Positions 6,138-63,074 of a stretch of DNA of 64,000 bases are shown piece after piece. This stretch comes from Chitinophagaceae bacterium 26-R-25. Its GTDB lineage: Bacteria; Bacteroidota; Bacteroidia; Chitinophagales; Chitinophagaceae. The stretch lies in assembly GCA_029906195.1 (NCBI GenBank), contig JARWSJ010000002.1:992001-1056000 (forward strand). The letters run 5' to 3'. The notes under the pieces were generated by a model. It was not told where the DNA came from and did not search any database. It was given only the letters and a program-made list of their open reading frames with translations. Positions within the stretch are counted from its first letter, which is position 1. Each line of letters opens with the position of its first letter. A program made the position numbers and the translations under genes.

Positions 6138-8042
6138 ATGGAACAAATACGCCTGCTGTTTTTGTCATTTTTCATTCTTTTCTCTGTTGCGTCGCTTGCG
6201 CAAACGAGCGATTCTACTATTAATGCATCATCAATACGGGCGGCCCACAGAATTTGGAAGGAAACCAAGTTTTATATGGGCGATGAAATTGATTATACCC
6301 CCAGGGAAGTATTTCAATTTAAGTTTCTGGATACGATCCCCTCGCTCTATAGAATGAAAATTCCACCACGGGATGTAAACAAAGATTTCTACTTCAAATT
6401 TCATGTGGCGAACAAAATGGATTCGGCCGGACATTATTATCTTCTGCCGGGGTATTTTATGGACGAAATTGATCTTTACAAGCAAATCGACGGAGACACC
6501 GCCATCCAGACAATTGCCACTGGCAGCCCATTGAAAAACCAATACCAAGGCGTGGTTGATTTTACCATGCAGGCCAACGAAAAGGCTACGATCATTGTGA
6601 AAATGAAGTTTATCAGGGCAACGGTAAATACGCTGGAACCAAGGATCATTCAACCCTACTTTGTTCCCATTTTGCTTACCTCATTACGCAATACAAATAA
6701 GCTCAACCAGGTTATTACTTACATAACAGCCGGAGTGTTGCTGATGATGATTTTCTATTCGCTGGCCGTCTATTTTTTAAATTCCAACAAAGAGTTTATC
6801 CTGTATTGTGGGCATGCATTGTTCCTCTCCATCCTGTTTTTCTTTAAAGCTTATTTATATCACTGGCCGTCAGCCTTCAACTATTTTTTTGAGAGCTATT
6901 TTGATTTTGTCATTCAAAGTACAAGCTTTTATTTTTTCCTTTTCTTCCTGAGAAAATTTACTGAATCCAAAGAGAAATATCCAATAATAGAAAAGATATT
7001 ACTGGCAGACCAGGTATTCACCGTTGTTGGCATACTTGTTTTCAGCTATCTCTATTTTTTCACGGATAGCTTTATTGTTTTTAACCAGGTGGAGATGATT
7101 ATAAAATATAGTTGGTCCATCACTGCGGCCTGCTTTATTGTTTTCGCGATCATTAAAAAACAGCAGCTGCTGAGTCTCATCGCAATGGGCCACTTTCTAC
7201 TGTTGATCTCCGTTCTTTTTTCACTGTATCTCATCAGTTCTGATAACCGTTTTGGCAGCAGGGTGGATCCTTTGCTCAACGATTCTCTGTTTTACTATGA
7301 AATGGGTGTTGTGTGCGAGTTAATCTTTTTCCTGATAGCGCTTGCATTTAAAAACAGGCAGGACATTATTGCTGCGGCAACGGAAAAAGAACGTTTGCTG
7401 CTCGCGCACGAACGAAACCAGTTGGAAAAACAGATTGCCATCATTGAGGCGCAGCAGCAGGAACGCAATCGTATATCCGCCGATATGCATGACGAGCTCG
7501 GTTCTGGCGTAACTGCCATAAGGCTGTTGAGCGAATTGGTAAAAGCGAAAATGAAGGGAGATGCATTGCCGGAGGTAGAAAGAATCTCAAGCTCTGCCAA
7601 CGACTTGATCAACAAAATGAACACCATCATCTGGACGATGAAGAGTTCAAATGACAGTATCGATAATCTTGCTGCTTACATACGATCATATGCATTGGAG
7701 TTTTTAGAAAACACCAGTATTGATTGCTATTTCAAATATCCCCCTGTGATACCTGCCATAGAATTGAGCGGTGAAAAAAGACGCAACATCTTCCTTTGCG
7801 TTAAAGAAACATTGAACAACACTGTAAAGCATGCCGGCGCCACCCAGGTAATCATTACAATGGACGTGAACGAAGTACTTATACTTACGCTTAAGGATAA
7901 CGGCATTGGTTTGAAAAAAGAAGATATGCGCCAGTTTGGAAACGGCATTTTGAACATGCGAAAAAGAATGGAAAGCATCGAAGGTTACTTTGAAATTTTT
8001 GAGGATGATGGAACAGTGACGGTGCTGTCGCTAGCGATATAA
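6138..8042 (+). CDS. 7TMR-DISM sensor histidine kinase (HisKA_3 type)
   Basis: This is a membrane kinase of the NarL/LuxR-partner type. Of its 634 residues, 1-21 form a signal peptide. About 40-165 fit the extracellular 7TMR-DISM extracellular-2 domain and about 180-400 contain seven hydrophobic segments. A coiled coil rich in E and Q leads to the dimerisation helix ERNRISADMHDELGSG near 441-456, with the phospho-accepting His in DMHDELG. The HATPase domain has the N-box KETLNNTVKHAG near 553 and a G-box around DNGIGL. I start at the ATG at 6138 rather than the TTG three bases earlier. No response regulator is adjacent, so the partner is encoded elsewhere. The ligand is unknown. The stop codon lies in a class B hairpin arm. 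Confidence 0.88.
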   Translation: MEQIRLLFLSFFILFSVASLAQTSDSTINASSIRAAHRIWKETKFYMGDEIDYTPREVFQFKFLDTIPSLYRMKIPPRDVNKDFYFKFHVANKMDSAGHYYLLPGYFMDEIDLYKQIDGDTAIQTIATGSPLKNQYQGVVDFTMQANEKATIIVKMKFIRATVNTLEPRIIQPYFVPILLTSLRNTNKLNQVITYITAGVLLMMIFYSLAVYFLNSNKEFILYCGHALFLSILFFFKAYLYHWPSAFNYFFESYFDFVIQSTSFYFFLFFLRKFTESKEKYPIIEKILLADQVFTVVGILVFSYLYFFTDSFIVFNQVEMIIKYSWSITAACFIVFAIIKKQQLLSLIAMGHFLLLISVLFSLYLISSDNRFGSRVDPLLNDSLFYYEMGVVCELIFFLIALAFKNRQDIIAAATEKERLLLAHERNQLEKQIAIIEAQQQERNRISADMHDELGSGVTAIRLLSELVKAKMKGDALPEVERISSSANDLINKMNTIIWTMKSSNDSIDNLAAYIRSYALEFLENTSIDCYFKYPPVIPAIELSGEKRRNIFLCVKETLNNTVKHAGATQVIITMDVNEVLILTLKDNGIGLKKEDMRQFGNGILNMRKRMESIEGYFEIFEDDGTVTVLSLAI

Positions 8043-8146
8043 TAACCGAATAACTGATTAACTGAATAACTGAATGGTTGAAAGTTGTAGTGCAAAAATT
8101 AAAATCAGCCCACTCAGTTATTCGGTTAATCAGTTATTCAGTTATT
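8041..8146. repeat. Long intergenic hairpin, class B (AATAACTGA words)
   Basis: The left arm 8041-8077 and right arm 8110-8146 pair over 37 bp with three mismatches, around a 32-nt loop. Each arm is a string of 8-nt words such as AATAACTG. The left arm begins in the stop codon of the sensor kinase and the right arm contains the stop codon of the convergent Dph6-like gene. Confidence 0.85.
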
Positions 8147-8786
8147 GCTCCCCCCACTGCACAAACCAATAATCCCCATGCTGCACCGTCGAAAACGCCG
8201 GCAGCTCCAACGGTTTATTGTATAGCGGGCAGTTAATCACCAATGTGTGAAACTCGCCATTTTCACCGCAAGGATCAACACCTTTTGCTTCGAGTGCTGT
8301 GACCAATTGCGGGTTAATAATTTTTCCTAAAAAAGTCTCCCCTAAAGTATTGTTGCAGGAAACGATCATTGTTTCAATACCCTGTTGCAGCATTTGCAAC
8401 ACAAGCTCCTTACGATCTTTCTGCCAAAGCGGTAGAAATGCATCCAGTCCTGCTTTCGCGCAAACTTTTTCCTCCCAGTCACGATGTGGCTGCAAGTCGA
8501 TATCACCGAAAACCATTCCGTTTATCTGATATTTTTCTTTCGCTTCGAGTAATGTATTGACAAAATGCATTTCATATTCTTCCCAGCTGGAAGGTTTTGT
8601 AAGCAATGGCAAATTCATTGCATTCGCCTGTTGTTGTAGCAATACGTGCGGTAGTGCATGAGACCTGGAAATTTTTCCATTCTCATTCATCATATTGATC
8701 AAAACTTTGGGCGAGTAACCTTGCTGCACCATTTGCATAAGTGCGAAACAACTGTCTTTGCCGCCGGACCAGGAAACGCCGAGCAT
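8142..8786 (-). CDS. Dph6-like ATP pyrophosphatase (diphthine-ammonia-ligase family)
   Basis: The 214-residue protein belongs to the PP-loop superfamily. The nucleotide-binding motif SGGKDS is at residues 7-12, FGDIDLQPHRDW is in the middle, and the family signature GENGEFHTLV is near 174-184. In eukaryotes and archaea this family amidates diphthine on elongation factor 2. Bacteria lack diphthamide, so the substrate here is unknown; a role in an adenylation-amidation step, for example in cofactor salvage, is possible but unproven. It lies convergent to a sensor kinase and upstream of DUF423 and aroK on the same strand, separated by a class D hairpin. No clear -7 box was found. Confidence 0.82.
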   Translation of the reverse strand: MLGVSWSGGKDSCFALMQMVQQGYSPKVLINMMNENGKISRSHALPHVLLQQQANAMNLPLLTKPSSWEEYEMHFVNTLLEAKEKYQINGMVFGDIDLQPHRDWEEKVCAKAGLDAFLPLWQKDRKELVLQMLQQGIETMIVSCNNTLGETFLGKIINPQLVTALEAKGVDPCGENGEFHTLVINCPLYNKPLELPAFSTVQHGDYWFVQWGEQ

Positions 8787-8788
8787 TG

Positions 8789-8994
8789 TAATTAATAATT
8801 AATAATTAAGAATTAAAAGGTGTTGCAGATTAATTGAGTGTTATCAGACTTGAGATTTTAACCAATAAAGAATAATGATAGCTGTAACTTTATAATTGAA
8901 TTCTGGCTGCTTTTAGAACGACTTGCCAAGAGAGCCTGAATAAAAATAGTTTCGCAGGTGCATCTATTAATTGTTAATTATTAATTATTAATTC
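8789..8994. repeat. Long intergenic hairpin, class D (AATTAAT words)
   Basis: The left arm (about 8789-8816) and right arm 8968-8994 pair over 27 bp with one mismatch across a spacer of about 150 nt. The left arm touches the start of the Dph6-like gene and the right arm includes the DUF423 stop codon. Confidence 0.75.
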
Positions 8995-9377: not shown

Positions 9378-9388
9378 GTTATATTGAA

Positions 9389-9910: not shown

Positions 9911-9930
9911 AGTTTGCTTGTTTGGAAAGA

Positions 9931-9944: not shown

Positions 9945-10082
9945 AATTGAAAATTGAAAGTTGAAAATTGAAAATGCTTTCTAAGCGGGGCATAAAAGCT
10001 ATCACTACCAACACTGTTGTTTAAAATAGGAGTGTTTGTAAATAAACCTCATTTTCAACTTTCAATTTTCAACTTTCCATTA
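9945..10082. repeat. Long intergenic hairpin, class A (TTGAAAA words)
   Basis: The left arm 9945-9976 is an exact copy of the 32-nt class A arm. The right arm 10050-10082 is its complement with a few changes and carries the stop codon of the acyl-CoA dehydrogenase gene. The two flanking genes are co-directional. Confidence 0.85.
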
Positions 10083-11258: not shown

Positions 11259-11329
11259 GGCATCAGCATTTTGTTATATGCTAATGTAGTAAAAAAATGT
11301 TGGAGGTTAACGCTTGTTAGTTTTTTAGT

Positions 11330-11475
11330 AATTGAAAATTGAAAGTTGAAAATTGAAAATGGGTTGAGAATTGAAAATTGAAAGTTGAAAGTTAAGAATG
11401 ATTAGCCAGTTAAGAATCAGGAGTTAACTCTCAACTCTCTGTCCATTTTCAATTTTCAACTTTCAATTTTCAATT
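11330..11475. repeat. Long intergenic hairpin, class A, perfect 32-bp stem
   Basis: Arms 11330-11361 and 11444-11475 are exact reverse complements. The loop holds a second, shorter arm pair made from related words (about 11364-11399 and 11413-11438). The right arm reaches into the stop codon of the DUF4421 gene. Confidence 0.9.
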
Positions 11476-12598
11476 ATTCCGGCCTCTGCGGTTGCATAGC
11501 GTCTACCGGTATCGGAATGTTTTTCGTAAAATGGTGATCAAACTGATTCAGCTTCTTTCTCAATTTAGGACCTGGCATAATACGATGCGCAAATGTTAAG
11601 CGCAGGTTTCCCGTATTGTATATGTAGTGGTCGGAAGATGACGAACCTTTTGTTATCAGTCTGTTGCCCACAAATGAAATATTGGCATTCCAGAAGTCGG
11701 AATTATAACCAATTGCTCCACGGGTAAAAAATCCAGGCACAATGCTTACGTGGAGTTTGGCAGCATCTTCGTACATGATACGTTCAGTCGCAAATGAAAT
11801 TTTTGGATTAAATGTAAGCGATGCTGTTGCAAAAATGTGTTTGGCAACTACCAGCGTGTACGCATAGCCCACACCGGGACCAAATTCAAAGAAGCGCATC
11901 TGGTTAATATTTTTCTGATTGAATTTTTCAGCCATCAACATAGGAACAAAAGCGCTGTCCGCAGTATGCGAACCATAATAGGCTTCCGCGCCAACAAGCA
12001 GTGTTCCTGCAGATTTTTGTTGGTACTCGTTCTGAACCATCGCTGCCCTGTAAGAAAACTTTTTATAGTTAAATATTTTGTATCCTGCTAAACCGATAAC
12101 AGTAACATGCATATCCGGACGGATATAATATTGCCCCTGCTCCTGGTTTTTGTTATCCTTTTGCAGAAGATAATATCCGGTGTAAAACTGCCCGAGAAGG
12201 TCAAACGCCCATTTACGAACATACAGGTGCGATTGCAGATCAAGATATTTTGTTTTTCCTTTTTCTTTATCCTGATTTAAAAAACTGAAACCATAACCAA
12301 GGTTGATCGTTATTGGCTTGTAGGTAGCACCAATACCCATGTTTAAAGTGGTGTTAGGTACATAACGCAACTTATCAGAGCGGTCGATCCCTTTGATGGT
12401 AGGGTTTGTAAATTTTTGGGAAAAATAAAATCTGCCAACAATGTCCTGGATAAACGAATGATAATACGACGAATCGTAAGTGGCTCGGAGATACTTAAGC
12501 TTCGGTATTTCCCGGGGCACTTCCTGCGCAGTACAATATAAAGCAAATGCTGTGATCAATATGCTCAGTATTACATGCTTTACCTTGTGTTTCATCAT
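11474..12598 (-). CDS. DUF4421 family outer-membrane protein
   Basis: The 374-residue protein has a signal peptide ending at CTAQE and then a series of alternating aromatic strands (for example GIGATYKPITINLGYGFSF and WAFDLLGQFYTGYYL). It ends in an amphipathic strand before a basic tail. This matches DUF4421, a Bacteroidota family predicted to form an outer-membrane beta-barrel with no assigned function. Two ATGs (12598 and 12595) are equally possible. It is divergent from the DnaJ gene with 91 nt between them and no recognisable -7 box. The stop codon overlaps a class A hairpin arm. Confidence 0.78.
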   Translation of the reverse strand: MMKHKVKHVILSILITAFALYCTAQEVPREIPKLKYLRATYDSSYYHSFIQDIVGRFYFSQKFTNPTIKGIDRSDKLRYVPNTTLNMGIGATYKPITINLGYGFSFLNQDKEKGKTKYLDLQSHLYVRKWAFDLLGQFYTGYYLLQKDNKNQEQGQYYIRPDMHVTVIGLAGYKIFNYKKFSYRAAMVQNEYQQKSAGTLLVGAEAYYGSHTADSAFVPMLMAEKFNQKNINQMRFFEFGPGVGYAYTLVVAKHIFATASLTFNPKISFATERIMYEDAAKLHVSIVPGFFTRGAIGYNSDFWNANISFVGNRLITKGSSSSDHYIYNTGNLRLTFAHRIMPGPKLRKKLNQFDHHFTKNIPIPVDAMQPQRPE

Positions 12599-13999: not shown

Positions 14000-14470
14000 A
14001 TGAAAAAGTTATGGTCATTTGAATTAGTGTTGGCGTTAATTGCGCTGCTGTTTATAGCATTATTAACGCTCATTATTGCCTGCAACTCTAAAAAAGCCAC
14101 TACCACAGTTATGGAAAGCAATCAGCCTCTGAATAATACATATTGGAAGTTGCTTAAAGTTGATGGCTTCAACCAGGACATTCCCAGCTTGCAAAAGGAA
14201 GCTTTTATCAGATTTGATTCTGCCAGTTCAAAATTCAGTGGAACTGCGGGTTGTAACCGCATGATGGGCGGTTTTGTGGCTACAGGGAATACCATTAAAA
14301 TCGGGCCCTCCGCAGTAACCAAAATGATGTGCCCCTCTCCACTAATGGAGCTTGAAGATGCCTTTTCAAAGGCCATTTATAAGGCAGATACATATTCAAT
14401 CTCAGGAAAAAAATTGCAGTTGAAAAACGGCGAAAGCGTGTTGGCAGAATTTGAGGCAGGAGGAAATTAA
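14000..14470 (+). CDS. META-domain (HslJ-like) lipoprotein
   Basis: The 156 residues start with a long hydrophobic signal that ends in a cysteine at LTLIIAC, fitting a lipoprotein signal peptide. The META domain follows: WKLLKVDG, then GCNRMMGGF near residues 90-98 and the conserved TKMMCPSPLMELE. META proteins such as HslJ are envelope proteins linked to heat shock and drug tolerance; the biochemical role is unknown. The stop codon merges with a class B hairpin arm. Confidence 0.83.
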   Translation: MKKLWSFELVLALIALLFIALLTLIIACNSKKATTTVMESNQPLNNTYWKLLKVDGFNQDIPSLQKEAFIRFDSASSKFSGTAGCNRMMGGFVATGNTIKIGPSAVTKMMCPSPLMELEDAFSKAIYKADTYSISGKKLQLKNGESVLAEFEAGGN

Positions 14471-14592
14471 TAACTGAATGGCTGAATAACTGAATAACTG
14501 ATGTTGAAAGTCAAACGTGTATAGAAGACGTCAATTATTCAATAATTCAATGATTCACGTTCTCCAGTTATTCAGTCATTCAGTTATTCAGT
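14469..14592. repeat. Long intergenic hairpin, class B
   Basis: The left arm 14469-14500 and right arm 14565-14592 are made of AATAACTG/CAGTTATT words and pair with a register shift. The right arm can be translated in frame with the downstream ATPase and produces a spurious N-terminal extension. Confidence 0.8.
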
Positions 14593-16502: not shown

Positions 16503-16637
16503 AATTAATAATTAATAATTAAAAATTAATAGAGCGGCATTCATTTTCGAATGCCGCTCTATTAATTTTTGAACGTTTTGTGGTAACCCTTTTACATGTA
16601 TGTTACCCTATTAATTATTCTTTATTAATTATTAATT
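16503..16637. repeat. Long intergenic hairpin, class D, enclosing a terminator
   Basis: Left arm 16503-16530 and right arm 16610-16637 consist of AATTAAT words. A 22-bp terminator hairpin lies nested at 16521-16570. The flanking genes are convergent. Confidence 0.75.
16521..16570. terminator. Bidirectional terminator, 22-bp perfect stem
   Basis: The stem 16521-16542 pairs exactly with 16549-16570 around the loop ATTTTC. It is GC-rich in the core (GAGCGGCATTC) and ends in A and T runs on both sides, so it serves uup and the convergent kinase gene. Confidence 0.85.
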
Positions 16638-20147: not shown

Positions 20148-20316
20148 AATTGAAAATTGAAAGTTGAAAATTGAAAATGAGGGAGGAAGCTTTTACAATT
20201 AAACATAATGGATTCAATTCCCCAAAAAAAAGAAGCCTTCAAATCGTTTGAAGGCTTCTTTTTTTATGCAAACTCTTATCTCCCCATTTTCAATTTTCAA
20301 CTTTCAATTTTCAATT
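20148..20316. repeat. Long intergenic hairpin, class A, perfect 32-bp stem around a terminator
   Basis: Arms 20148-20179 and 20285-20316 are exact complements. The right arm encodes the last two codons and stop of the convergent phosphorylase gene. A strong terminator sits in the loop. Confidence 0.9.
20224..20266. terminator. Bidirectional terminator between FKBP and glucan phosphorylase
   Basis: GAAGCCTTCAAA pairs with TTTGAAGGCTTC around TCG, flanked by a run of A upstream and T downstream (stem about 20224-20243 with 20247-20266). Confidence 0.85.
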
Positions 20317-23141: not shown

Positions 23142-23238
23142 ATTCGGGCTTGTTCTGGGGGCTAAAGTAACCATTTTGTTGTTATGTATGCATTAACTAA
23201 CAAAGCTTTTGGGCTGATGATTTCAAAACTGTGCCCTA

Positions 23239-23364
23239 TTTGAAAATTTGAAAATATGGGAATTTGAAAATTCTTTCTGAGCAACTTTTCAGTTTCATAT
23301 TAACTCGCCAAATACCCCATCCAAAGCATTTTCAAATTTTCAAATCCTCAAATTTTCAAATTTG
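23239..23364. repeat. Long intergenic hairpin, class G (AATTTGAAA words), divergent site
   Basis: Left arm about 23239-23273, right arm about 23327-23364, built of AAATTTG/CAAATTT words. It lies between divergent genes, upstream of the mntR promoter. The right arm is the exact complement of the left arm of the copy at 27429, and the start of the loop resembles that of the copy at 47361. Confidence 0.75.
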
Positions 23365-26011: not shown

Positions 26012-26156
26012 AATTAAGAATTAGGAATTAAGAATTAAGAATTCGTTAGGTCGAACTTGGTTTTTGAATGTATGCTCGCTGCAAAGCAGCGACTAATGAT
26101 TTTCGCGTGATGTTACACAGAAAGCATTCTTAATTCTTAATTCCTAATTCTTAATT
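26012..26156. repeat. Long intergenic hairpin, class D variant (AATTAAG words), perfect 31-bp stem
   Basis: Left arm 26012-26042 and right arm 26126-26156 are exact complements. It lies between the convergent mntH and Crp-like genes, and the right arm touches the stop codon of the latter. Confidence 0.85.
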
Positions 26157-27428: not shown

Positions 27429-27580
27429 AATTTGAAAATTTGAGGATTTGAAAATTTGAAAATGAGGCATCTGCATATTTTAGAATTTGTTATTGCTTCG
27501 GGATCGGCGATCAAATGTTAGAAAAAGAAGGCTGCATTTAAAGAATTTTCAGATTATCATATTTTCAAATTTTCAAATTC
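27429..27580. repeat. Long intergenic hairpin, class G, divergent site
   Basis: The left arm (about 27428-27463) consists of AATTTGAAA and AGGATTTG words and equals the complement of the right arm at 23329-23364. Its own right arm (about 27560-27580) is shorter. Confidence 0.7.
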
Positions 27581-29008: not shown

Positions 29009-29072
29009 CTGATTTGGCATATAAATGTTGACCGGTTAATACAGGTTGAGAACATTGTTTCTGTGCAAAAGG

Positions 29073-29128
29073 CTTCGACAAGCTCAGCCTGACAGCGCTA
29101 GCGGAGTGTCAGGCTGAGCTTGTCGAAG
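29073..29128. repeat. Class M hairpin (CTTCGACAAGCTCAG), perfect 22-bp stem
   Basis: Arms 29073-29094 and 29107-29128 are exact complements around a 12-nt loop. A second copy with two changes is at 40657-40712. I recognise this as a dispersed palindrome type seen in many bacterial genomes. Confidence 0.85.
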
Positions 29129-29218
29129 TCTTCTCACCATTATCGCTGCTCGGTAAAAAGTTTTAATGCAGCACCTCTCATTTTCAAATTAGCACATCTT
29201 CAAATTTTCAAATTACCG

Positions 29219-30808: not shown

Positions 30809-31912
30809 ATGACGCAGGAGCAAATACTAAAAGCATTGAGCAATGTGCAAGAACCTGACTTAGGAAAGGATATTGTAACGCTCAATATGGTTAAAGATAT
30901 AGAGATCAATAACAACGACGTTTCTTTTACCGTAGTCCTCACTACACCGGCTTGTCCTTTGAAGGACCTGATAAAAAATGCCTGTGTAAACGCTGTGCAA
31001 ATTCTTGTAAATAAGGAGGCTAAAGTAAAAGTGAATTTCACCTCTAACACGAGCAGTAATCGCCAGGACACCCAGGCTGTTTTACCCAAAGTTAAAAACA
31101 TCATCGCGGTAGTAAGTGGTAAAGGTGGCGTTGGAAAAAGTACCGTTTCTGCCAACCTTGCAATTGCACTCGCACAAGGCGGCGCTCAGGTAGGTTTGAT
31201 GGATGCGGACATTTACGGTCCAAGCGTGCCTATTATGTTTGGCGTACGCGGCGAACGCCCTATGATGATGCAGATTGAAGGTGCCGATAAAGGCATGATC
31301 GTTCCTTTGGAGAAATATGGTATCAAACTGATGAGCATCGGTTTACTGGTAGATGAAAAAAATGCGGTGGTTTGGCGCGGTCCAATGGCCAGCAGCGCCA
31401 TCCGTCAGTTTGTAACAGATGTTTACTGGGACGAACTTGATTATCTTATCATCGACATGCCTCCGGGAACAGGCGACATTCATTTGACGCTCATGCAAAC
31501 CGTTCCTGTTACAGGCGTTATTGTTGTAACCACACCGCAAGACGTTGCACTGGCAGATGCTAAAAAAGGTATCGCTATGTTTGGCCAGGCGCAAATTAAA
31601 GTGCCGATCATCGGGTTGGTGGAAAACATGAGTTACTTTACTCCTGCTGAACTGCCAAATAACAAATACTACATCTTCGGAAAAGAAGGTGGTAAGAGAT
31701 TGGCTGAAGAATATGACATTCCTCTCATTGGACAAATTCCACTTGTACAAAGCATTCGCGAAGGCGGCGACAATGGCGAACCTATCATGGCAAGCAACGA
31801 CGAAATCACGAAAAAAGCTTTCGAAGAATTTGCCGGTGCCGCAGCAAGAAGTATTGCCATGCGCAACGCAAACCTCGAGGCTACCAAGGTGATTGAAATA
31901 GTAGAAGGTTAA
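30809..31912 (+). CDS. mrp: Mrp/ApbC/NBP35-family P-loop ATPase
   Basis: This is an iron-sulfur cluster carrier or scaffold of the ParA/MinD superfamily. The 367 residues have an N-terminal MIP18/DUF59 domain (about 1-85, with TTPACPLKDLI) and the ATPase domain: deviant Walker A SGKGGVGKST near 103-112, DADIYGPSVP, and IIDMPPGTGDIHLTLMQ. In many Mrp proteins a C-terminal CxxC after ENMSYF binds the cluster. Here the segment is ENMSYFTPAELPNNKYYIFG with no cysteine, so cluster handling must use other residues. The stop codon overlaps a class A arm. Confidence 0.92.
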   Translation: MTQEQILKALSNVQEPDLGKDIVTLNMVKDIEINNNDVSFTVVLTTPACPLKDLIKNACVNAVQILVNKEAKVKVNFTSNTSSNRQDTQAVLPKVKNIIAVVSGKGGVGKSTVSANLAIALAQGGAQVGLMDADIYGPSVPIMFGVRGERPMMMQIEGADKGMIVPLEKYGIKLMSIGLLVDEKNAVVWRGPMASSAIRQFVTDVYWDELDYLIIDMPPGTGDIHLTLMQTVPVTGVIVVTTPQDVALADAKKGIAMFGQAQIKVPIIGLVENMSYFTPAELPNNKYYIFGKEGGKRLAEEYDIPLIGQIPLVQSIREGGDNGEPIMASNDEITKKAFEEFAGAAARSIAMRNANLEATKVIEIVEG

Positions 31913-32142
31913 TTGAAAATTGAAAGTTGAAAATTGAAAATGGTAGGGGCGAATTGCATTCGCCCTCGAAATAGAAAATGGGGAGTACGTCGAAAGATGC
32001 ATTCCCCATTTTCTATTTAATAAAGGAATAATCGAGTAATTGGATACAGATGCACCATAACTTCAGTTATTCAATTATTCAGTTACTCAGTTATTTGTAC
32101 ATTAGCCAATCATTTTCAATTTTCAACTTTCAATTTTCAATT
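31911..32142. repeat. Composite class A hairpin with three nested inner hairpins
   Basis: The outer arms 31911-31942 and 32111-32142 are exact 32-nt complements. The interior holds a GGGCGAAT palindrome (31947-31965), a perfect 16-bp stem (31969-31984 with 32003-32018, core AGAAAATGGGGA) and class B words (about 32021-32097, mostly the right arm). The left arm starts inside the mrp stop codon and the right arm ends 8 nt before the next gene. Confidence 0.9.
31947..31965. repeat. Short palindrome, GGGCGAAT family
   Basis: GGGCGAAT and its complement around TGC, nested in the class A element. It matches the copy at 13341-13359 apart from one loop base. Confidence 0.7.
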
Positions 32143-32149
32143 ACCCAAA

Positions 32150-32791
32150 GTGTACAGTTTCCCTTACTATAAAACCAAGGATCACGAAAAAGTGCTGCAG
32201 TTTATGCAGGCCCATCCGTTTGCGATGTTAACAGGTTGCGATGAGCAGCATTGTCCAGTTGCTACACAGGTGCCGATCTTAATGTCGGAAAGAGATGGCC
32301 GGTTGTTCCTGGAAGGACATGTGATGCGCAATACAGATCATCAAAAAGCATTTGCGGCAAACAATAATGTACTCGCCATTTTCACGGGGCCGCATACATA
32401 TGTGAGCGCAAGCTGGTACGCAAATCCTCAGCAAGCCTCCACATGGAATTACATGGCCGTGCATGCGAAAGGACAACTTACTTTCCTGCCGGATGAACGA
32501 TTGATCGATATTCTCAAAAGAACGACTGATCAATTTGAAAACAATCCTGCCTCTGAAGCGTCGTTTGATAAATTGCCACAAGAGTATGTGAGTAGATTAG
32601 CAAAAGCAATCGTAGCTTTTGAAATTGAAGTGACAGCCCTCGATCACACATTTAAGCTGAGTCAAAACAGAGATGAGGAAAGTTATAAAAACATTACCCA
32701 TCGATTGTCTGTTAGTGATAATGCGGATGCCAATGCAATCGCTAAGATGATGGAGGCGGGACATGACGATGTGTACAATAAAGAAAAGTAA
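32150..32791 (+). CDS. PaiB-like FMN-binding negative transcriptional regulator
   Basis: The 213 residues start at a GTG (MYSFPYYKTKD) and follow the PaiB family. It is a split-barrel flavin-binding fold with HPFAMLTGCDEQHCPVATQVP, VMRNTDHQKAF, IFTGPHTYVSASWY near 82-95 and WNYMAVHAKG. The C-terminal helix carries FKLSQNRDEESY. Bacillus PaiB affects protease and sporulation genes, though the family may be simple flavin reductases. The class A right arm ends just upstream. The start is uncertain because there is no ATG nearby. Confidence 0.82.
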   Translation: MYSFPYYKTKDHEKVLQFMQAHPFAMLTGCDEQHCPVATQVPILMSERDGRLFLEGHVMRNTDHQKAFAANNNVLAIFTGPHTYVSASWYANPQQASTWNYMAVHAKGQLTFLPDERLIDILKRTTDQFENNPASEASFDKLPQEYVSRLAKAIVAFEIEVTALDHTFKLSQNRDEESYKNITHRLSVSDNADANAIAKMMEAGHDDVYNKEK

Positions 32792-32861
32792 AAAGTAGAA
32801 AGTCAAAAATTCGTAACACTGTTGCGCCAGCTTTTGACTTTTGATTTTTTATTTTTGACTT
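32787..32861. repeat. Long intergenic hairpin, class K (AAGTAAAAAGTAGAAAGTC words)
   Basis: The left arm (32787-32809) begins over the PaiB-like stop codon. The right arm (32831-32861) is its imperfect complement and contains a TATTTTTG box (32850-32857) that could serve the next gene. Confidence 0.65.
32850..32857 (+). promoter_or_regulatory. Candidate -7 box of the GDPD gene inside a repeat arm
   Basis: TATTTTTG matches TAnnTTTG, lies about 28 nt before the ATG at 32886 and is part of the class K right arm. Confidence 0.5.
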
Positions 32862-33806: not shown

Positions 33807-33812
33807 AATACA

Positions 33813-33931
33813 GGAACGCAGATTTTCATGATTGTCATGATTTTAATGATTCTTAAATTGGATGTTTTGTAACTATCCATATCGTTAGAAAAAATCTTTG
33901 TAATCATGAAAATCTTGACAATCTGCGTTCC
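33813..33931. repeat. Long intergenic hairpin, class C (TCATGATT 9-mers), permuted arms
   Basis: The left arm 33813-33852 reads GGAACGCAGATT followed by 9-mers TTCATGATT, GTCATGATT, TTAATGATT. The complement of the right arm (33902-33931) has GTCAAGATT then TTCATGATT. The end blocks pair perfectly but the inner words are in a different order. Confidence 0.8.
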
Positions 33932-33951
33932 TTCTCTCAAAAAATCACATC

Positions 33952-34749: not shown

Positions 34750-35565
34750 ATGACACGTCAGCAACTGGTTGAGCAAATCAAGAAAAAGAAATCGTATCTG
34801 TGTGTAGGTCTAGACACAGATATCTCCAAGATTCCTGCTCATTTACAATCGCATCCTGATGCTATTTTCGAGTTCAATAAAGCGATCATTGATGCAACAA
34901 AAGACCTTTGCGTAAGCTATAAGATCAACACCGCTTTCTACGAAGCGCACGGACTGAAAGGCTGGGAGGCTATGCAGAAAACAGTGGAATATATCCCCAA
35001 AGATATTTTTACAATTGCCGATGCAAAACGCGGCGACATAGGAAACACTTCTACACAATACGCCAAAGCTTTTTTTGAAGCACTTCCTTTCGACTCAATC
35101 ACGGTAGCTCCGTACATGGGTGAAGACAGTGTGGCGCCCTTTCTGGAATACAACGGCAAATGGGCCATCGTTCTTGGATTGACTTCCAACAAAGGCGCAT
35201 CCGATTTTGAGTTGCAAAAAACAGGTGACAGTTATTTGTATGAAAAAGTATTGAGCACCGTTTCAAAATGGGGAAGTCCGGAAAACCTAATGTTTGTAAT
35301 TGGCGCAACACAGGCAGACGAATTTACCAACATAAGAAAAATCACTCCTAATCATTTTTACCTTGTTCCCGGTGTAGGCGCACAAGGTGGTAGCTTAAAA
35401 GATATTTCCGAAAAAGCAATGAATAAAGATTGCGGACTGCTGGTAAATGCAAGCCGCGCAATCATCTACGCATCAGGAAAAGAAGACTTTGCTGAAGCAG
35501 CGAAAAAAGTAGCCCAGGAATATCAGCAGGAAATGGCGGGATATCTCGAGAGACTGAATAACTGA
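34750..35565 (+). CDS. pyrF: Orotidine 5'-phosphate decarboxylase (type 2)
   Basis: This enzyme converts OMP to UMP, the last step of pyrimidine synthesis. The 271 residues match the longer type 2 family: [14 protein letters not shown] near the start, [12 protein letters not shown], the catalytic [10 protein letters not shown] near 90-99, [13 protein letters not shown], and the phosphate-binding [10 protein letters not shown] near 205-214. [10 protein letters not shown] near the end is typical. No other pyr genes are nearby. The stop codon lies inside a class B hairpin arm. Confidence 0.95.
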
Positions 35566-35708
35566 GTAAATGAATAACTGAATTTGGCTTAACGCTAAAT
35601 GCCGAATGCTGAACGCAGGATCCCTATTTGGGCTTAGCGTTTTGCATTCGGCATTTTCAGTTATTCAGTTACTCAGTTATTCAGTTACTCAGTTATTCAG
35701 TTATTCGG
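35553..35708. repeat. Class B hairpin enclosing a class J hairpin
   Basis: The outer left arm 35553-35583 and the longer right arm 35658-35708 are strings of CAGTTATT/AATAACTG words; they contain the stop codons of pyrF and rluD. Nested inside is a class J stem (about 35598-35616 with 35634-35654, core AATGCCGAATGC). Confidence 0.85.
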
Positions 35709-40623: not shown

Positions 40624-40656
40624 TCTAATAATCGGACGGCACATTTGTGCAACAAG

Positions 40657-40712
40657 CTTCGACAAGCTCAGCTTGACAGTGTGAGCGGAGTGTCAGGCTG
40701 AGCCTGTCGAAG
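40657..40712. repeat. Class M hairpin, second copy
   Basis: Arms 40657-40678 and 40691-40712 pair over 22 bp with two mismatches around a 12-nt loop. It is the same family as 29073-29128, and both loops end in GAGCGGAG or GCGGAG. Confidence 0.8.
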
Positions 40713-40720
40713 CCAAATGA

Positions 40721-42892: not shown

Positions 42893-42997
42893 AGGCTTAA
42901 CGCAGAACGCCTAACGCAAAACGCAGGTGCCTGATAATGTGAACTGTCTTCACTATCAAGCACCTGCGTTTTGCGTTAGGCATTAAGCGTTTAGCCT
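42893..42997. repeat. Long intergenic hairpin, class J (AACGC words)
   Basis: Left arm 42893-42930 and right arm 42960-42997 pair over 38 bp with few mismatches; the 24 bp next to the loop (GCCTAACGCAAAACGCAGG core) are perfect. The right arm reaches the mgtE stop codon. The flanking genes are convergent. Confidence 0.85.
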
Positions 42998-44387: not shown

Positions 44388-44420
44388 GCTACTGCTGGTT
44401 TATCGTTCTCTAATTGCTAG

Positions 44421-44470
44421 GCCCGTACATTTCTTCGGAAAAATACGGGCAAATTTCTGCAAATTGCAGC
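44421..44470 (-). promoter_or_regulatory. Hairpins in the mgtE leader region
   Basis: GCCCGTA (44421-44427) pairs with TACGGGC (44444-44450), and CTGC-AAATT-GCAG lies at 44458-44470. If transcribed they would form the mgtE 5' leader. They do not match a known Mg riboswitch by eye. Confidence 0.3.
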
Positions 44471-44494
44471 AGAAAAAATATTTTAATTACAATC

Positions 44495-44878
44495 ATGATC
44501 CTGCCTTGTTTATTTATCTCTCTAACTGAAAATATGGGGAAAGGTGTTTTTACCTCGGAGCGGCTGGAAGCGAAAACTGTTATCGAGGTGGCACCTGTGA
44601 TTGTGATGGATGCAAACGACAGAAAACTGTTGGATCAAACCATGCTGCACGACTATATTTTTGAATGGGGCACAGAAAGAAATCAATGTTGCATGGCGCT
44701 GGGCTACGTGCCGATGTATAACCACAGTTTTGTAAGCAATTGCGAATACGAAATGGATTTCGACGAGCACCTCATTTACATAAAAACCGTTCGCGACATA
44801 GAACCGGGGGAGGAATTTTTCATTAATTACAATGGTGATTGGAATGATGAGAAGCCGCTATGGTTTGAAGCTACGTAG
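44495..44878 (+). CDS. SET-domain protein (putative lysine methyltransferase)
   Basis: The ATG at 44495 gives 127 residues consisting almost only of a SET domain: GKGVFTSERLEAKTVIEVAP at the start, MYNHSFVSNCEYEMD near 72-86 (the NHS-x-x-x-N cofactor motif) and IEPGEEFFINYNGDW at the end, with the catalytic-type Tyr in INYNG. Such compact SET proteins bind S-adenosylmethionine and methylate lysine. The bacterial target is unknown. A longer upstream frame to 44414 runs through the mgtE leader and is rejected. Confidence 0.82.
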   Translation: MILPCLFISLTENMGKGVFTSERLEAKTVIEVAPVIVMDANDRKLLDQTMLHDYIFEWGTERNQCCMALGYVPMYNHSFVSNCEYEMDFDEHLIYIKTVRDIEPGEEFFINYNGDWNDEKPLWFEAT

Positions 44879-44880: not shown

Positions 44881-45048
44881 AGAACGCAGATTTTCATGAT
44901 TGTCATGATTTTTTAAGATTTTTAAAACTTTATGTTCATCAAATTCAATAATGCTGTTGTTGATGGTACACTATTATTAAGAATGTAATCCTTTGAGGGA
45001 AAGAATAAGATCATAACAAATCATGACAATCATGAAAATCTGCGTTCC
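44881..45048. repeat. Long intergenic hairpin, class C
   Basis: The left arm 44881-44920 and right arm 45019-45048 match over about 29 nt with one change, in order: the AACGCAGATT block, then TTCATGATT and GTCATGATT. It lies between the convergent SET and fmt genes. Confidence 0.85.
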
Positions 45049-45982: not shown

Positions 45983-45988
45983 AATTAT

Positions 45989-46140
45989 AATTGAAAATTG
46001 AAAGTTGAAAGTTGAAAATGAGAGGGAACGCAGATTTTCATGATCGTCATGATTTGATATGATTTTTTAATAGGTGATCTTAGCAAGTCATCAAAATCAC
46101 GGAAACCTGCGCTCCCATTTTCAACTTTCAATTTTCAATT
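45989..46140. repeat. Class A hairpin enclosing a decayed class C pair
   Basis: The left arm 45989-46020 and right arm 46116-46140 are class A (the right is shorter by one 7-mer). Inside, AACGCAGATTTTCATGATCG (from about 46026) and AGTCATCAAAATCACGG... words (to 46114) are a diverged class C pair. The right arm ends in the namZ stop codon. Confidence 0.8.
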
Positions 46141-47335
46141 ATTCGCTGTACAGCAAGTACTTTTTTCTTATGGACTTAAACTTGGTCAAGTCTCCTTGCC
46201 AGCTGTCGCGGATTTGTTTTTCGGTTTTGCCGTCTTTGATTTGTTGCATCAAAATGTCGTTGCCGGCAAGTTTGTTGAAGAAATTATTGCTGAGGAAAAA
46301 CTTGTCTTTTTCTTTGTACAATGAGTAGGCTTTCAGTAACCATTTCAATTGAAGTTTATCATCAATTTCTTTTACTGCGTCAATTTTGCTAAGATCGTAG
46401 CCATAACATTTTTGATTTAGCAGCGGTGGATTTTTTGCGCCCTCTACGCTTTGCGGTGTAAATGAGAAAAGATCAGTTGGAAATTCCGGGCTGCCAAAAA
46501 TCTGGAAAGGCTTGTCTGTACCGCGTCCCAGGCTTACTTGTGTGCCTTCAAAAAAACAAAGAGAAGGATAGAGATAGATGGATTGTGCGTTAGGTAAATT
46601 GGGTGATGGCTTTACGGGCAATGTGTAATGACTTTTATGCGTGTAATTTTTACAAGAGATCACGGAAAGTTTGAAGGAAGACATCTTCTGGTTAACAGTG
46701 GCATCAAACCATTTTTCTCCTACCAACATTTTTGCATATTCACCGATGGTCATTCCGTATACTATCGGAACGGATTGCATGCCCACAAATGATTTGAACT
46801 TTTTATCAAGCAGGGGTCCGTCAACATAAAAGCCATTTGGGTTCGGCCTGTCCAGTACGATCAAAGGTTTGTTAAACATGATTGCACTTTCCATAAGATC
46901 CTGCAATGAGGAAATGAACGTGTAAAATCTTACCCCAACATCCTGTATGTCGAATACAATGATGTCCACATCCTGCAACTGCTCCGCAGTGGGTTTTGTT
47001 TTGCTGCCGTACAATGAAATAACAGGAAGCCCGGTTTGCTGGTCAACTGAATTTTGCACTTTTTCTCCCGCGTCTGCGTTGCCACGAAAGCCATGTTCCG
47101 GTGCAAATATTTTCCTGATAACCACGCCTTTTGATAACAAGGTGTCAATCAGGTGGGTGTGCCCAACAATGGACGTTTGATTAGCAAAGATGGCGACAGA
47201 CTTGCCTTTCAGCATCGGCAGATATTCCTGCATTCTTTCCGCACCGGTAATAATGCTTGTTTTTTGCGCTGCAATGGAAAGCGTTAAGGCCAGAAAAAAT
47301 AAAAAGAGGGGAATTTTTGCAAATGGTTTTCTCAT
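46139..47335 (-). CDS. namZ: DUF1343 exo-beta-N-acetylmuramidase NamZ
   Basis: NamZ removes terminal MurNAc from peptidoglycan fragments for cell-wall recycling. From the ATG at 47335 the protein has 398 residues with a signal peptide (IPLFLFFLALTLSIAAQ). The family motifs are VAIFANQTSIVG, IFAPEHGFRGNADAGE near 80-95, FDIQDVGVRFYTFISSL, LDRPNPNG and VPIVYGMTIGEYA. FFEGTQVSLGRGTDKPFQ marks the C-terminal part. It is probably periplasmic. A TTG frame to 47362 is rejected. Confidence 0.9.
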   Translation of the reverse strand: MRKPFAKIPLFLFFLALTLSIAAQKTSIITGAERMQEYLPMLKGKSVAIFANQTSIVGHTHLIDTLLSKGVVIRKIFAPEHGFRGNADAGEKVQNSVDQQTGLPVISLYGSKTKPTAEQLQDVDIIVFDIQDVGVRFYTFISSLQDLMESAIMFNKPLIVLDRPNPNGFYVDGPLLDKKFKSFVGMQSVPIVYGMTIGEYAKMLVGEKWFDATVNQKMSSFKLSVISCKNYTHKSHYTLPVKPSPNLPNAQSIYLYPSLCFFEGTQVSLGRGTDKPFQIFGSPEFPTDLFSFTPQSVEGAKNPPLLNQKCYGYDLSKIDAVKEIDDKLQLKWLLKAYSLYKEKDKFFLSNNFFNKLAGNDILMQQIKDGKTEKQIRDSWQGDLTKFKSIRKKYLLYSE

Positions 47336-47676
47336 AATATTTATTGAAAGTGATGTCTTCAATTTGAAAATTTGAAAGTATGAAAAAATGAAAATTCTTT
47401 CTGTGAAACTTTCATTTTTTGAATTAACGCGCTAAATGTCCGGGAACAGACGATAAAATCAGAAATGACACACATAAAGAATTTTTCAAATTTTCAAATC
47501 CTCAAATTTTCAAATTGGACATAAAGGCCTTACCTTGCCGGTATTTCGCATCCTTTTGTTCTTCACTGTTTCGCTGTGTCAGCTCATGAATCTGGAACTT
47601 TCCTTTTACGGGCGCATCGCTATGACGTTGAGAAGAAATGAGAAGCTGATAACGTTAATTTTTTAAAAAATATTTT
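47336..47676. other. Gene-free divergent region namZ / slyD-like
   Basis: This 341-nt spacer holds a class G hairpin (47361-47516). The remaining 160 nt before the slyD-like ATG have only near-matches to a -7 box and a TTTTTTAAAAAA run close to the start. No ORF or RNA gene was seen. Confidence 0.55.
47361..47516. repeat. Long intergenic hairpin, class G, divergent site
   Basis: Left arm 47361-47394 and right arm about 47481-47516 (CAAATTTT, CAAATCCTCAAATTTT words). The right arm is identical over about 34 nt to that at 23331-23364, and the loop starts with the same AAAATTCTTTCTG as that copy. Confidence 0.75.
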
Positions 47677-52252: not shown

Positions 52253-52399
52253 ACGTGAATCGTGAATGGTGAAACGTGAATCGTGAAAGGTGAATGGTGA
52301 AACGTGAATCTGGACACCTGTAGCTTCTTTCTTTCGAAGAAAAGCACTGCCAGATTTTGTTTCACTGCTGCATTCACGATTGACGATTCACCATTCACC
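52253..52399. repeat. Long intergenic hairpin, class H (CGTGAATGGTGAAA words), divergent site
   Basis: The left side (52253-52310) has seven tandem words of the CGTGAAT/GGTGAAA type. The right side (52371-52399) has the complementary ATTCACGATTG and ATTCACC words and is half as long. The element separates ypdA and the SPFH gene. Confidence 0.75.
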
Positions 52400-53364: not shown

Positions 53365-53518
53365 GAATTAGGAATTAGAAGTTAGGAATTAGGAATTAGG
53401 GGTGCTTCACTTTATGTATTTGGCAGACTAACTTTTTTTAGAAGTGTTCGGAAAGTCTGCGAAGGTTTAAAAAATCAAATAGCCTTAATTCCTAATTCCT
53501 AACTTCTAATTCCTAAAT
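53361..53518. repeat. Long intergenic hairpin, class E (GGAATTA words)
   Basis: The left arm (53361-53400) contains a 31-nt stretch at 53368-53398 that is the exact complement of the right arm at about 53488-53518, including the shared off-word AGAAGTT. The left arm begins on the SPFH stop codon. Confidence 0.85.
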
Positions 53519-54840: not shown

Positions 54841-55004
54841 AATTGAAAATTGAAAGTTGAAAATTGAAAATTGAAAGTTGAAAATTGAAAATGAGGGCCT
54901 CTAAAATTTAGACTTCACCTCAGTTTATAAAATGCGAAAGGTCGAACATCATAACAAATGTTCGACCTTTCGCATTTTCAATTTTCAACTTTCAATTTTC
55001 AATT
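54841..55004. repeat. Class A hairpin with a doubled left arm and nested terminator
   Basis: The left arm 54841-54893 holds almost two copies of the class A arm; the copy at 54862-54893 is the exact complement of the right arm 54973-55004. A 21-bp terminator stem lies inside. The flanking genes are convergent. Confidence 0.9.
54929..54978. terminator. Bidirectional terminator, 21-bp perfect stem
   Basis: Stem 54929-54949 pairs exactly with 54958-54978 (core GCGAAAGGTCGAACAT) around an 8-nt loop, with A and T runs at its base. Its base overlaps the class A right arm by six nucleotides. Confidence 0.85.
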
Positions 55005-56834: not shown

Positions 56835-56912
56835 AATTGAAAATTGAAAGTTGAAAGTTGAAAATGGAGTAGCGAAATTTCATTTTCCATTTTCAACTTT
56901 CAATTTTCAATT
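56835..56912. repeat. Compact class A hairpin
   Basis: The left arm 56835-56868 and right arm 56886-56912 are class A words around a 17-nt loop. The right arm contains the mltG stop codon, and the right arm is one 7-mer shorter. Confidence 0.85.
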
Positions 56913-59795: not shown

Positions 59796-59850
59796 GTGTG
59801 AGATTCGATAGTGAGGTAAAAGTATGAAAATAGTTGAGAGTGGGGAGGGG

Positions 59851-59949
59851 AGAATTGAAAATTGAAAGTTGAAAATTGAGGGCTATTCAGATTTAACATT
59901 TTGCCTACAATCATTAACTCTCAATTCTCAACTCTCCATTCTCAATTTA
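59851..59949. repeat. Class A hairpin, diverged, inside an otherwise conserved operon
   Basis: The left arm (59851-59880) has AATTGAAA words. The right arm (about 59914-59949) has CTCAATTCTCAAC words and contains the stop codon of the sigma-54 activator. Pairing is imperfect. Confidence 0.65.
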
Positions 59950-61224: not shown

Positions 61225-61232
61225 TCGGTTGT

Positions 61233-61373
61233 AATTGAAAATTGAAAGTTGAAAATTGAAAATGGGTTGAGAATTGAAAGTTGAAAATGATGTGATGCCA
61301 TTATGGAAGTCTATTTTCCGTAAACAAACTTGCACCTAAAGAATTTTCAACTTTCAACTTTCAATTTTCAATT
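61233..61373. repeat. Class A hairpin with an inner repeat of arm words
   Basis: The left arm 61233-61264 is the exact 32-nt class A arm, followed by a second shorter arm (about 61266-61290). The right arm 61343-61373 ends in the miaB stop codon. Confidence 0.85.
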
Positions 61374-62796
61374 ATTCAATGATTTGCCCAATCAGCGTGC
61401 CTCCGGTTGACTCAACTACTTTCACCATCACGTAATCGCCCGGTTTGCATTGACTGGTTCCTTTGGGAACAACAACTACTTTGCTTTGGCTGTTCCGCCC
61501 AGCCCAGTCTTTCTCGCTGCGTTTGCTATTTCCTTCGATTAATATTTTGAAAGTCTTGCCAACATCTGCAGCATTGGACTCTTCAGAAAGACGTCTTTGT
61601 ACTGCAACTATTTCCGCAAGTCTTCTTTTCTTTATGTCTTCAGGGATATCGTCTTCGTATCTTCTTGCCGCCAATGTGCCTGGCCTCTCACTGTAGTAAA
61701 ACATGTAAGCAAAATCATACTTGCTGTACTTCATCATGTCTATTGTATCCAGGTGATCTTCTTCTGTTTCTGTACAAAAGCCTGCGATGATGTCAGCGGT
61801 GATTGCGCAATCAGGCATTACTTCCCTGATACGGGCAACTTTGGCTTTGTACCACTCACGTGTGTAAGTTCGGTTCATGAGCTGCAACACACGGTTAGAG
61901 CCACTTTGAATAGGAAGGTGAATGGATTTGCAAATGTTTTCGTGCTTAGCCATCGTCTGCAAAACATCCTCTGTAATATCTTTCGGATGTGACGAACTAA
62001 AGCGTACCCGAAGGTCAGGTGAAATAAGCGCCACCATTTCCAACAAGTGGGCAAATGTTACCACGTTATTCGAACTGATATCTGATGTGTAGTAGTAAGA
62101 ATCTACGTTTTGTCCCAGCAGCGTTACTTCTTTAAAACCCCTTTCAAAAAGGTCGCGACACTCGGCAATAACGCTTGCGGCATCGCGGCTTCTTTCACGG
62201 CCGCGTGTAAACGGCACCACGCAAAAGGAACACATGTTGTTGCAACCACGCATAATGCTCACGTAAGCCATTACGCCGTTGCTGTTAAGGCGGATAGGGG
62301 AGATGTCTGCATAAGTTTCATCGCGGCTCAGCAACACGTTTACAGCTTTCTGTCCGCCGTCTGCTTCTTCGATCAAAGCAGGAAGGCTTCTGTAGGCGTC
62401 AGGTCCCACGACAATATCAACAAGCTTTTCTTCTTCCAGCAATTTAGCTTTCAGTCGCTCGGCCATACATCCAAGCACTCCAACCAATGTGCCTGGTCTT
62501 GCCTGCTTCAATTTGCGAAATTCAGTAAGACGTTTTCTTACCGTCTGCTCCGCTTTTTCGCGGATTGAACAGGTGTTCAGGAAAATAAGATCGGCGTCCT
62601 CACAATTGCTGGTAGCACCAAAACCATCCTTGTTTAAAATGGAAGCCACAATTTCGCTATCTGCAAAGTTCATGGCGCAGCCATAGCTTTCTATGTAGAA
62701 TTTCTTCTTGTATTGATTGGGGTCGTTGGCAAACGGAGCATATGCTTCTCCCTGCCTCGCTTCATCATGCGCTTTTTCTGCTACAACATCCAGCAT
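61372..62796 (-). CDS. miaB: tRNA-2-methylthio-N6-dimethylallyladenosine synthase MiaB
   Basis: MiaB adds a methylthio group to i6A37 of tRNAs. The 474 residues have the UPF0004 domain with three cluster-binding cysteines ([34 protein letters not shown]) and the radical-SAM motif CNNMCSFC near 182-189 followed by [13 protein letters not shown]-terminal TRAM domain (about 405-474, [14 protein letters not shown] through GGTLIGQII) binds RNA. A TATTTTTG box lies about 22 nt upstream. It precedes the sigma-54 activator. Confidence 0.95.
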
Positions 62797-62818
62797 TTTT
62801 CAGTTTTTTGTAAGTGTG

Positions 62819-62826
62819 CAAAAATA
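62819..62826 (-). promoter_or_regulatory. Candidate -7 box of miaB
   Basis: TATTTTTG on the minus strand, 22 nt before the ATG at 62796. Confidence 0.55.
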
Positions 62827-62870
62827 GCTAAAAAGAGGGAAATAAATGACAGGATGGCAGATTTAGTTGG

Positions 62871-63074
62871 AATTGAAAATTGAAAGTTGAAAGTTGAAAA
62901 TGGATGAGGGAACGCAGATTCTCATGATTGTCAAGATTATAAATGATTTTAAGGATAAAGATTTGAAGATTGCTAAAATTTCCAAATCTCAAATCAAAAT
63001 ATCTTAGCAGATCATGACAATCATGAGAATCTGCGTTCCACTGATTTTCAATTTTCAACTTTCAATTTTCAATT
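62871..63074. repeat. Class A hairpin enclosing an intact class C hairpin
   Basis: The outer arms 62871-62902 and 63044-63074 are class A. The inner arms 62909-62937 and 63011-63039 are class C and pair over 29 bp with one mismatch. The outer right arm reaches the stop codon of the CNNM gene. Confidence 0.9.

Follow-up and report, generated by a model that had tools for sequence, protein, structure and literature searches.

What are the long inverted repeats that lie between the genes of Chitinophagaceae bacterium 26-R-25, and what ties so many different sequences to one design? The stretch that raises the question (hereafter the window) comprises 64,000 nt of contig JARWSJ010000002.1 of this soil bacterium, positions 992,001-1,056,000. 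A sequence-only reading had reported more than 30 intergenic regions there with hairpin arms made of short tandem words, in many word classes. These elements look like an apparently undescribed group of tiny fold-back repeats favouring gene ends. The explanation that I favour, tentatively and at a little under an even chance, is that they belong to many families of very short fold-back elements, similar to miniature inverted-repeat transposable elements (MITEs), which are kept at gene ends and remodelled by template switching; I call them non-coding because they are too short to be otherwise. Of 276 intergenic regions examined, 93, or about a third, carry an element. If the elements are mobile, they amount to a large and apparently undescribed kind of bacterial repeat, and their filled but changing sites open intergenic turnover to direct test. 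If instead they have a function as cassettes at gene ends, structure is kept there while sequence is replaced.

Tandem-word hairpins between genes

One inverted-repeat finder gives 91 pairs of at least 18 nt, no more than 200 nt apart, in the window, and the 25 longest include many of the loci already remarked on: 8041, 11329, 20148, 23238, 26012, 31907, 44882, 53368 and 54862. With my own finder (match +1, mismatch -2), the window's 51 intergenic regions of at least 40 bp contain 23 elements scoring at least 18, with 8 weaker ones (13-17) among the remaining regions; the figure of more than 30 is therefore true only with the weak elements and fails at a score of at least 18. Coding DNA of the window, scanned over 57,288 bases with gene ends trimmed by 30 nt, contains none. 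Across 456 kb of the same genome the 93 regions score at least 20, and 121 of the 276 score at least 14, whereas dinucleotide shuffles (three per region) gave a mean of 0.33 at 14 or above and none at 16 or above. Thus, the intergenic inverted repeats are real, and their arms are complementary far beyond shuffled AT-rich sequence. Single-stranded DNA folds of five chosen elements gave z-scores of -4.3 to -15.7.

A wider scan covered 1293 intergenic regions, N-free and of up to 2500 bp, in four stretches: 856 kb of the own genome (window included), 578 kb of Pinibacter aurantiacus MAH-26 (G001) and 600 kb of P. soli MAH-24 (G002), the two congeners. It yielded 430 elements scoring at least 18, of which single linkage placed 398 in 23 clusters of two or more and left 32 as singletons. 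Arms are about 20-45 nt long and the whole element typically 100-150 bp. Among arms of at least 20 nt, 304 of 415 are tandem (self-match at least 0.6), compared with 54 of 415 when shuffled; the word period is 7 in 190 of the 304, 8 in 100, 9 in 13 and 5 in one. Many word classes with a single intergenic architecture are thereby supported. The earlier picture of arms as tandem words throughout does not stand, since ordinary palindromes, and no tandem words, make up several of the clusters from these regions. Its statement that the classes share no sequence is only partly true: A (TTGAAAR), M (TTGAGAR) and G (ATTTGAAR) have a common core.

Polarity is strict in the genus. Similar arm pairs have the same polarity in 6170 cases and the opposite in 22, and the 15 of these 22 that were listed are self-palindromic types. 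Of the pairs of neighbouring arms, 72 of 81 face inward in class A, 53 of 55 in B, 48 of 48 in C, 51 of 54 in G, 36 of 39 in E and 47 of 72 in D. Spacer length is class-typical: often near 80 nt in A and G, often 27 or 37 in B, 22-28 in N and 11-12 in Q. Spacers are sometimes homologous across loci, at a score of at least 50 in 36 of 1373 pairs within a class, 6 of 10,210 between classes and 0 of 3465 shuffled pairs. By my reading of the list, 10 of the 36 reflect nested class C words and 2 a common GTAG palindrome, which leaves 24. Class C words are found nested inside class A elements (window 45987-46142 and 62871-63074). A hairpin GGTCGAAC...GTTCGACC (window about 54940-54967) recurs within spacers at 8 further places in the three species, giving 5 own loci and 4 congener places, with class A arms at 7, class G arms at 1 and none detected at 1.

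Could such elements arise by independent slippage expansion of 7-8 nt simple repeats that then pair by chance? One survey found that, in most genomes, heptamers outnumbered other long simple repeats (Mrazek et al. 2007, as cited in PMC4679880), and slippage is a possible origin of the words themselves. As an account of the elements it is very improbable, for it does not account for arms that pair and keep a strict inward polarity, for spacers of class-typical length or for spacers in common.

Gene ends, stop codons and transcription

Of the 50 convergent regions in the 456 kb, 27 hold an element; the figures are 55 of 176 for co-directional regions and 11 of 50 for divergent ones. Their edges lie at stop codons: 350 of 505 stop-facing arms begin within 15 nt of the stop, 136 touching or overlapping it and 214 more close by, and 39 of 355 start-facing arms lie within 15 nt of a start codon (start sites are approximate, the genes having been called with a simple in-house caller). 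Convergent elements (n=129) occupy a median of 90% of their intergenic DNA. Read inward, 54% of 740 arms place a stop in all three frames within 27 nt, as against 13% outward and 16% for shuffled inward sequence. The inward values are 95% in class A, 99% in B, 82% in G, 88% in E and 94% in D, and the outward values are 0% in A, B and G, 86% in E and 82% in D. Words of 7 and 8 nt bring a stop into every frame, but words of 9 nt do not. Three-frame stops may thus favour the survival of an element beside a stop codon.

The same placement can be read as function, namely as 3'-end hairpins (terminators or messenger RNA stabilisers) under selection for a stem whatever its sequence. The richness of convergent regions, the stable folds and the correlation of site presence between species even when content differs all agree with this. 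A stem selected as RNA should, however, show G.U above A.C mismatches in the transcribed strand, and it does not: the counts are 125 and 118 at co-directional loci (p 0.7) and 50 and 53 at convergent ones. At divergent loci, where the transcribed strand is undefined, the two mismatch types number 46 and 25 (p 0.017). Selection for an RNA stem, one of the two mechanisms first suggested for these hairpins, accordingly gets no support from mismatch types. Divergent regions hold elements too, sequence-specific families are not expected from stem selection alone, and T-run hairpins are no commoner beside an element (9 of 55 convergent regions with and 7 of 32 without; 10 of 108 co-directional regions with and 30 of 204 without). 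I regard functional 3'-end hairpins as an unlikely explanation. The intrinsic terminator as such, a short GC-rich stem with a T-run, was also rejected as an identity, the element as a whole being a long, mostly AT-rich stem.

The same sites in the congeners

Coding DNA flanking the elements is about 91% and 87% identical in the two congeners. In 910 N-free orthologous comparisons over three species pairs, which have loci in common and are not independent, an inverted repeat is present in both species in 255, in one only in 176 and in neither in 479. Occupancy is therefore strongly shared between species but not fixed. Odds ratios by orientation and species pair run from 3.9 to 47.6, seven of the nine between 6 and 22; for co-directional regions of the own genome and G001, neither is occupied in 120, G001 only in 17, the own genome only in 22 and both in 48.

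The content of a site can differ. The 255 comparisons occupied in both species divide into 152 of the same class and 103 with dissimilar arms. On a strict recount these 103 comprise 58 with two different word classes, 42 with a palindrome, a terminator or an unclassified repeat in one of the two species, and 3 of the same class after all. The words are related in 30 of the 58 (such as A/M, A/G, D/E and C/S) and unrelated in 28. Where the class is the same, orthologous spacers align directly in 73 comparisons, inverted in 16, both ways in 2 and not at all in 61. The 16 inversions come from about 14 loci, and about 9 of them have no direct similarity. A control of 552 non-orthologous same-class pairs gave 14 inverted, 6 direct and 3 both, so that inverted spacers make up 10.5% at orthologous sites and 2.5% in the control.

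No alignable site was found empty. Both 30-nt flanks could be aligned in 251 element-by-species comparisons (628 tried, 177 elements), and none of the 251 has a gap of 15 nt or less; the gap is 16-60 nt in 12 and larger in 239. An inverted repeat of at least 16 is contained in 201 of these gaps, and the median gap is 0.99 of the element length, with 11 under half. One non-word palindrome element, whose flanks could not be aligned, is clearly absent from G001.

Such filled but changing sites suggest another possibility, more daring and rather doubtful, that gene ends carry lasting 'sockets', hardly ever empty, which are refilled with a different fold-back family by targeted replacement. This might proceed by hairpin cleavage and capture, or by the homing of one element into another. 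If it is true, genomes swap hundreds of interchangeable stop-and-hairpin cassettes, and some families have crossed phyla.

A hairpin might also be made in place, and the sequence-only reading had proposed that the second arm is copied from the first. In that scheme word slippage makes one arm, fold-back of the nascent strand makes the other, and the design is a by-product. I compared arms located by class consensus and not by complementarity, with 2000 permutations of loci as the null. Arm identity within loci and between permuted loci is 0.914 and 0.902 in class A (0 of 2000 permutations reach the former), 0.859 and 0.849 in B (36), 0.876 and 0.874 in C (712), 0.875 and 0.869 in G (323), 0.888 and 0.848 in E (0) and 0.896 and 0.837 in D (0). 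Classes A, B, C and G thus show little or no excess within loci (small but significant for A and for B), and the excess is moderate in D and E, whose arms are clearly more alike within than between loci. That arms of the first four classes are nearly as alike across loci argues against copying as the main route. Strict class polarity across many loci and an identical 30-mer in unrelated taxa point the same way, and templated copying as the sole origin was rejected; I rate it improbable. In its favour, all the same, are the D and E arms, the inversion of spacers above the control and the coupled changes of both arms between species, 33 against 10.3 expected with 27 still paired (counted over elements whose arms align fully and whose arms and spacer reach 65% identity). 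Where the spacer could be aligned, in 75 comparisons, identity is 92.0% for arms and 78.8% for spacers. Because coupled changes exceed expectation and spacers flip, correction of one arm from the other is likely as a secondary process.

Spread, kin and the favoured explanation

Families sampled across whole genomes occur in hundreds of dispersed copies. Class A arms have 533 matches in the own genome, 211 in G001 and 203 in G002; class C has 281, 177 and 162, and class B, with overlapping matches counted, 758, 821 and 315. In 36 other genomes of the order, class A has at most 5 matches per genome (imperfect; 5 and 2 in two genomes), and B and C have 0. A 32-nt class A arm at no more than one mismatch was found only in the own genome among 395 sampled from the phylum (a sample that did not include the congeners), so that the wider occurrence of class A is patchy. 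An exact 30-nt class A arm turns up in scattered records of Bacteroidales, Flavobacteriales, Clostridia (several of 60-66% G+C) and Lentisphaeria, in at least 44 stretches outside Pinibacter, of which 33 were inspected. Most of the records from other phyla are metagenome-assembled genomes, in which misbinning is possible. In Oscillospiraceae RGIG6852 (62-66% G+C; L176, L181, L189, L197) class A arms are followed by a hairpin GTTTTCAAATTGCSATTTGAAAAC or a close variant. There is one class A match on a plasmid, of Parabacteroides (29 of 33 nt), and one among viral contigs; on a piece of one IMG/VR contig, four gene junctions carry class A arms, and the three elements resolved there have similar spacers, one of which looks inverted by eye.

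The same plan with other words is present in at least three further genera of the family. Up to 20 kb was scanned in each of 20 relatives, of which three (G005, G017 and G022) show word-like arms and 12 have no inverted repeat of at least 18. Six genera were scanned by region, a sample that was not random since three were picked for word arms seen in an earlier scan, and inverted repeats of at least 18 occur in 11 of 44 regions of G022, 5 of 53 of G017, 6 of 57 of G006, 3 of 48 of G005, 2 of 14 of G023 and 1 of 43 of G016; only G022, G017 and G005 have clear word-like arms.

Are the elements a known family? The earlier suggestion that they match none with a name agrees with the absence of any Rfam family at gathering score in the whole window, and no account of a fold-back tandem-word architecture was among the papers listed by searches of the open-licence literature of PubMed Central. 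Foldback elements of Drosophila have terminal inverted repeats composed of short tandem repeats and a variable middle. The Pinibacter elements are like them in plan, but they are bacterial, typically 100-150 bp long and have no known enzyme. Invertons are phase-variable invertible promoters in which short inverted repeats let the intervening DNA flip; unlike these, the present elements are mostly at gene ends, and their inversions are seen between species only. BrickBuilt, a MITE of Porphyromonas gingivalis (PMC4596501), likewise combines tandem repeats with small inverted ends in intergenic DNA of a member of the Bacteroidota, but as described there its 23-nt repeats form the middle and not the arms, and it has 19 copies. 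Closer in sequence are the TAACTGA repeats of some Bacteroidetes and Cyanobacteria, forward copies of which stop all three frames (MacGregor 2015, PMC4679880): adding one base to that heptamer gives the class B word. In that account, however, the repeats are mostly direct and lie ahead of start codons, the BOGUAY genome having one indirect repeat, whereas here they are inverted pairs, mostly after stop codons.

Like the bacterial MITEs treated in PMC3733652, such as NEMIS, RUP and ERIC, the elements are short, non-coding, dispersed in many copies, intergenic and bounded by terminal inverted repeats. They differ from MITEs as outlined there in having tandem-word arms, many families together, spacers that are mostly unrelated and sometimes inverted, and neither empty sites nor target duplications that could be seen; I have not filed them as MITEs because clean insertion was looked for and not observed. 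Repetitive extragenic palindromic (REP) sequences, with their BIME and REPIN arrangements, and TIRtrons also resemble them (PMC3733652), being of high copy number, downstream of genes and between convergent ones, in inverted pairs and in several families per genome. One might therefore suppose kinship with REP/REPIN or TIRtron elements mobilised by Y1 (RAYT/TIRYT) transposases, and Y1 genes are indeed present in the genus. One such gene, with 47-nt terminal inverted repeats of its own (L143, 1177-1866, G000 C1 at about 2605 kb; L251; also in G002), looks like a TIRtron. Its repeat is no word class, however, and a look for the core in 2.03 Mb brought no copy to light. In G001, two class G elements flank another Y1-like gene (L253, C10 at about 57 kb), but its G002 counterpart of equal length and score (L249) has no such elements around it. 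By inspection the word arms lack the GTAG/CGTC tag described for REPs, and a single arm is neither palindromic nor a hairpin alone. No RAYT/TIRYT gene linked to the same repeats appeared at 10 of the 12 Y1 match places, those inspected. Since tag and linked transposase were both missing, I have not assigned the elements to either group, and such kinship seems about as improbable as templated copying. A search for reverse transcriptases gave 4 matches. For longer units, such as a full-length transposon with the same ends, class A alone was surveyed: of 28 pairs of neighbouring arms 300-5000 nt apart in the 2.03 Mb, 2 face inward.

How, then, might MITE-like fold-back elements behave as observed? 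They may spread as units by a trans-acting enzyme, and survive at gene ends because the most frequent families (A, B, D, E and G) have arms that would stop an incoming ribosome in three frames. Template switching during replication would remodel the hairpin, inverting the spacer and sometimes correcting one arm from the other. New copies may enter or replace old ones, which would turn over the class at a site without an empty state. The searches made found neither the enzyme nor the insertion step.

Several observations weigh against this explanation. No transposase bearing word arms was found at the 10 of 12 Y1 places inspected, no gap in the 251 alignable comparisons shows clean insertion, and I noticed no target duplication in those alignments that I inspected. 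Spacers of one class are mostly unrelated at different loci, as are 61 of the 152 at orthologous sites. The 176 comparisons occupied in one species only include 70 without any arm trace in the other, and some exchanges (A and G arms round a similar spacer) resemble replacement of arms, not of a unit. Inward three-frame stops are not given by classes C, K, S, R, Q, P and N; E and D give them in both directions; and the related TCGAAAR word of G017 lacks the class A stop. The exact 30-mer is of low complexity and may be convergent, and of 37 pairs of neighbouring class A arms less than 1.5 kb apart outside Pinibacter, only 18 face inward, so that arm pairing is much weaker there.

Elements of the window and minor observations

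Table 1. Inverted-repeat elements of the window, by position, with three of the weak elements last.
Element	Position	Remarks
class B (AATAACTG words)	8041..8146, arms 8041-8077 / 8110-8146	convergent genes; DNA fold z -8.8
class D (AATTAAT words)	8790..8993	window scan
class A (TTGAAAR words)	9947..10072	window scan
class A, perfect 34-nt arms	11329..11476	both congeners: class A arms, class C words in spacer
class B	14469..14588	window scan
class D arms	16503..16637	inner perfect 22-nt hairpin 16521-16570
class A	20148..20316	convergent genes; hairpin with T-run in spacer
class G (ATTTGAAR words)	23238..23361	divergent genes; DNA fold z -4.3
class E, perfect 31-nt arms	26012..26156	convergent; among folded elements
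class G	27429..27579	spacer scored inverted against G001 in a first, smaller comparison; not in the larger one
palindrome AAGGCTTCGACAAGCTCAGCC..., no tandem-word class	29069..29132	window scan
class A, perfect 33-nt arms	31910..32143	same site: class A in G001, class G arms in G002
class C	33812..33932	same site: class G in G001, class C in G002
class B	35556..35682	spacer direct in G001, scored inverted in G002; spacer itself partly palindromic
class J (AACGC words)	42893..42997	window scan
class C	44882..45047	between SET-domain and formyl transferase genes; class G in G001, G-like word in G002
class A	45987..46142	class C words nested in spacer
class H (GTGAATSGTGAA words)	52262..52398	divergent
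class E, perfect 31-nt arms	53368..53516	window scan
class A	54841..55004, arms 54862-54893 / 54973-55004 and extra left arm	class G arms in G001; terminator-like hairpin in spacer; DNA fold of 54862-55004 z -15.7
class A, 14-nt spacer	56835..56912	window scan
class A	61232..61374	same site: class B in G001, class A in G002
class A	62871..63074	class C words nested in spacer, about 62909-63039
weak class F (ACCGCAAAG words)	2133..2239	window scan
weak class K (AAAAGTM words)	32784..32856	window scan
weak class G	47362..47499	window scan

The non-tandem palindromes AAGGCTTCGACAAGCTCAGCC, whose loop measures about 12 nt, lie in the window at 29069-29132 and 40656-40713; the own stretches hold 7 of them and G002 holds 1. 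Another cluster, of 12 palindromes from the own genome and the congeners, contains GTAGAGACGC and resembles the GTAG-tagged REP superfamily as characterised in PMC3733652. The relative G022 (L129) has an inverted repeat of GGATGAC words with 89-nt arms and a 175-nt spacer. Beside the class C element at 44882, the gene at window 44414-44878 encodes a bacterial SET-domain protein (Pfam PF00856).

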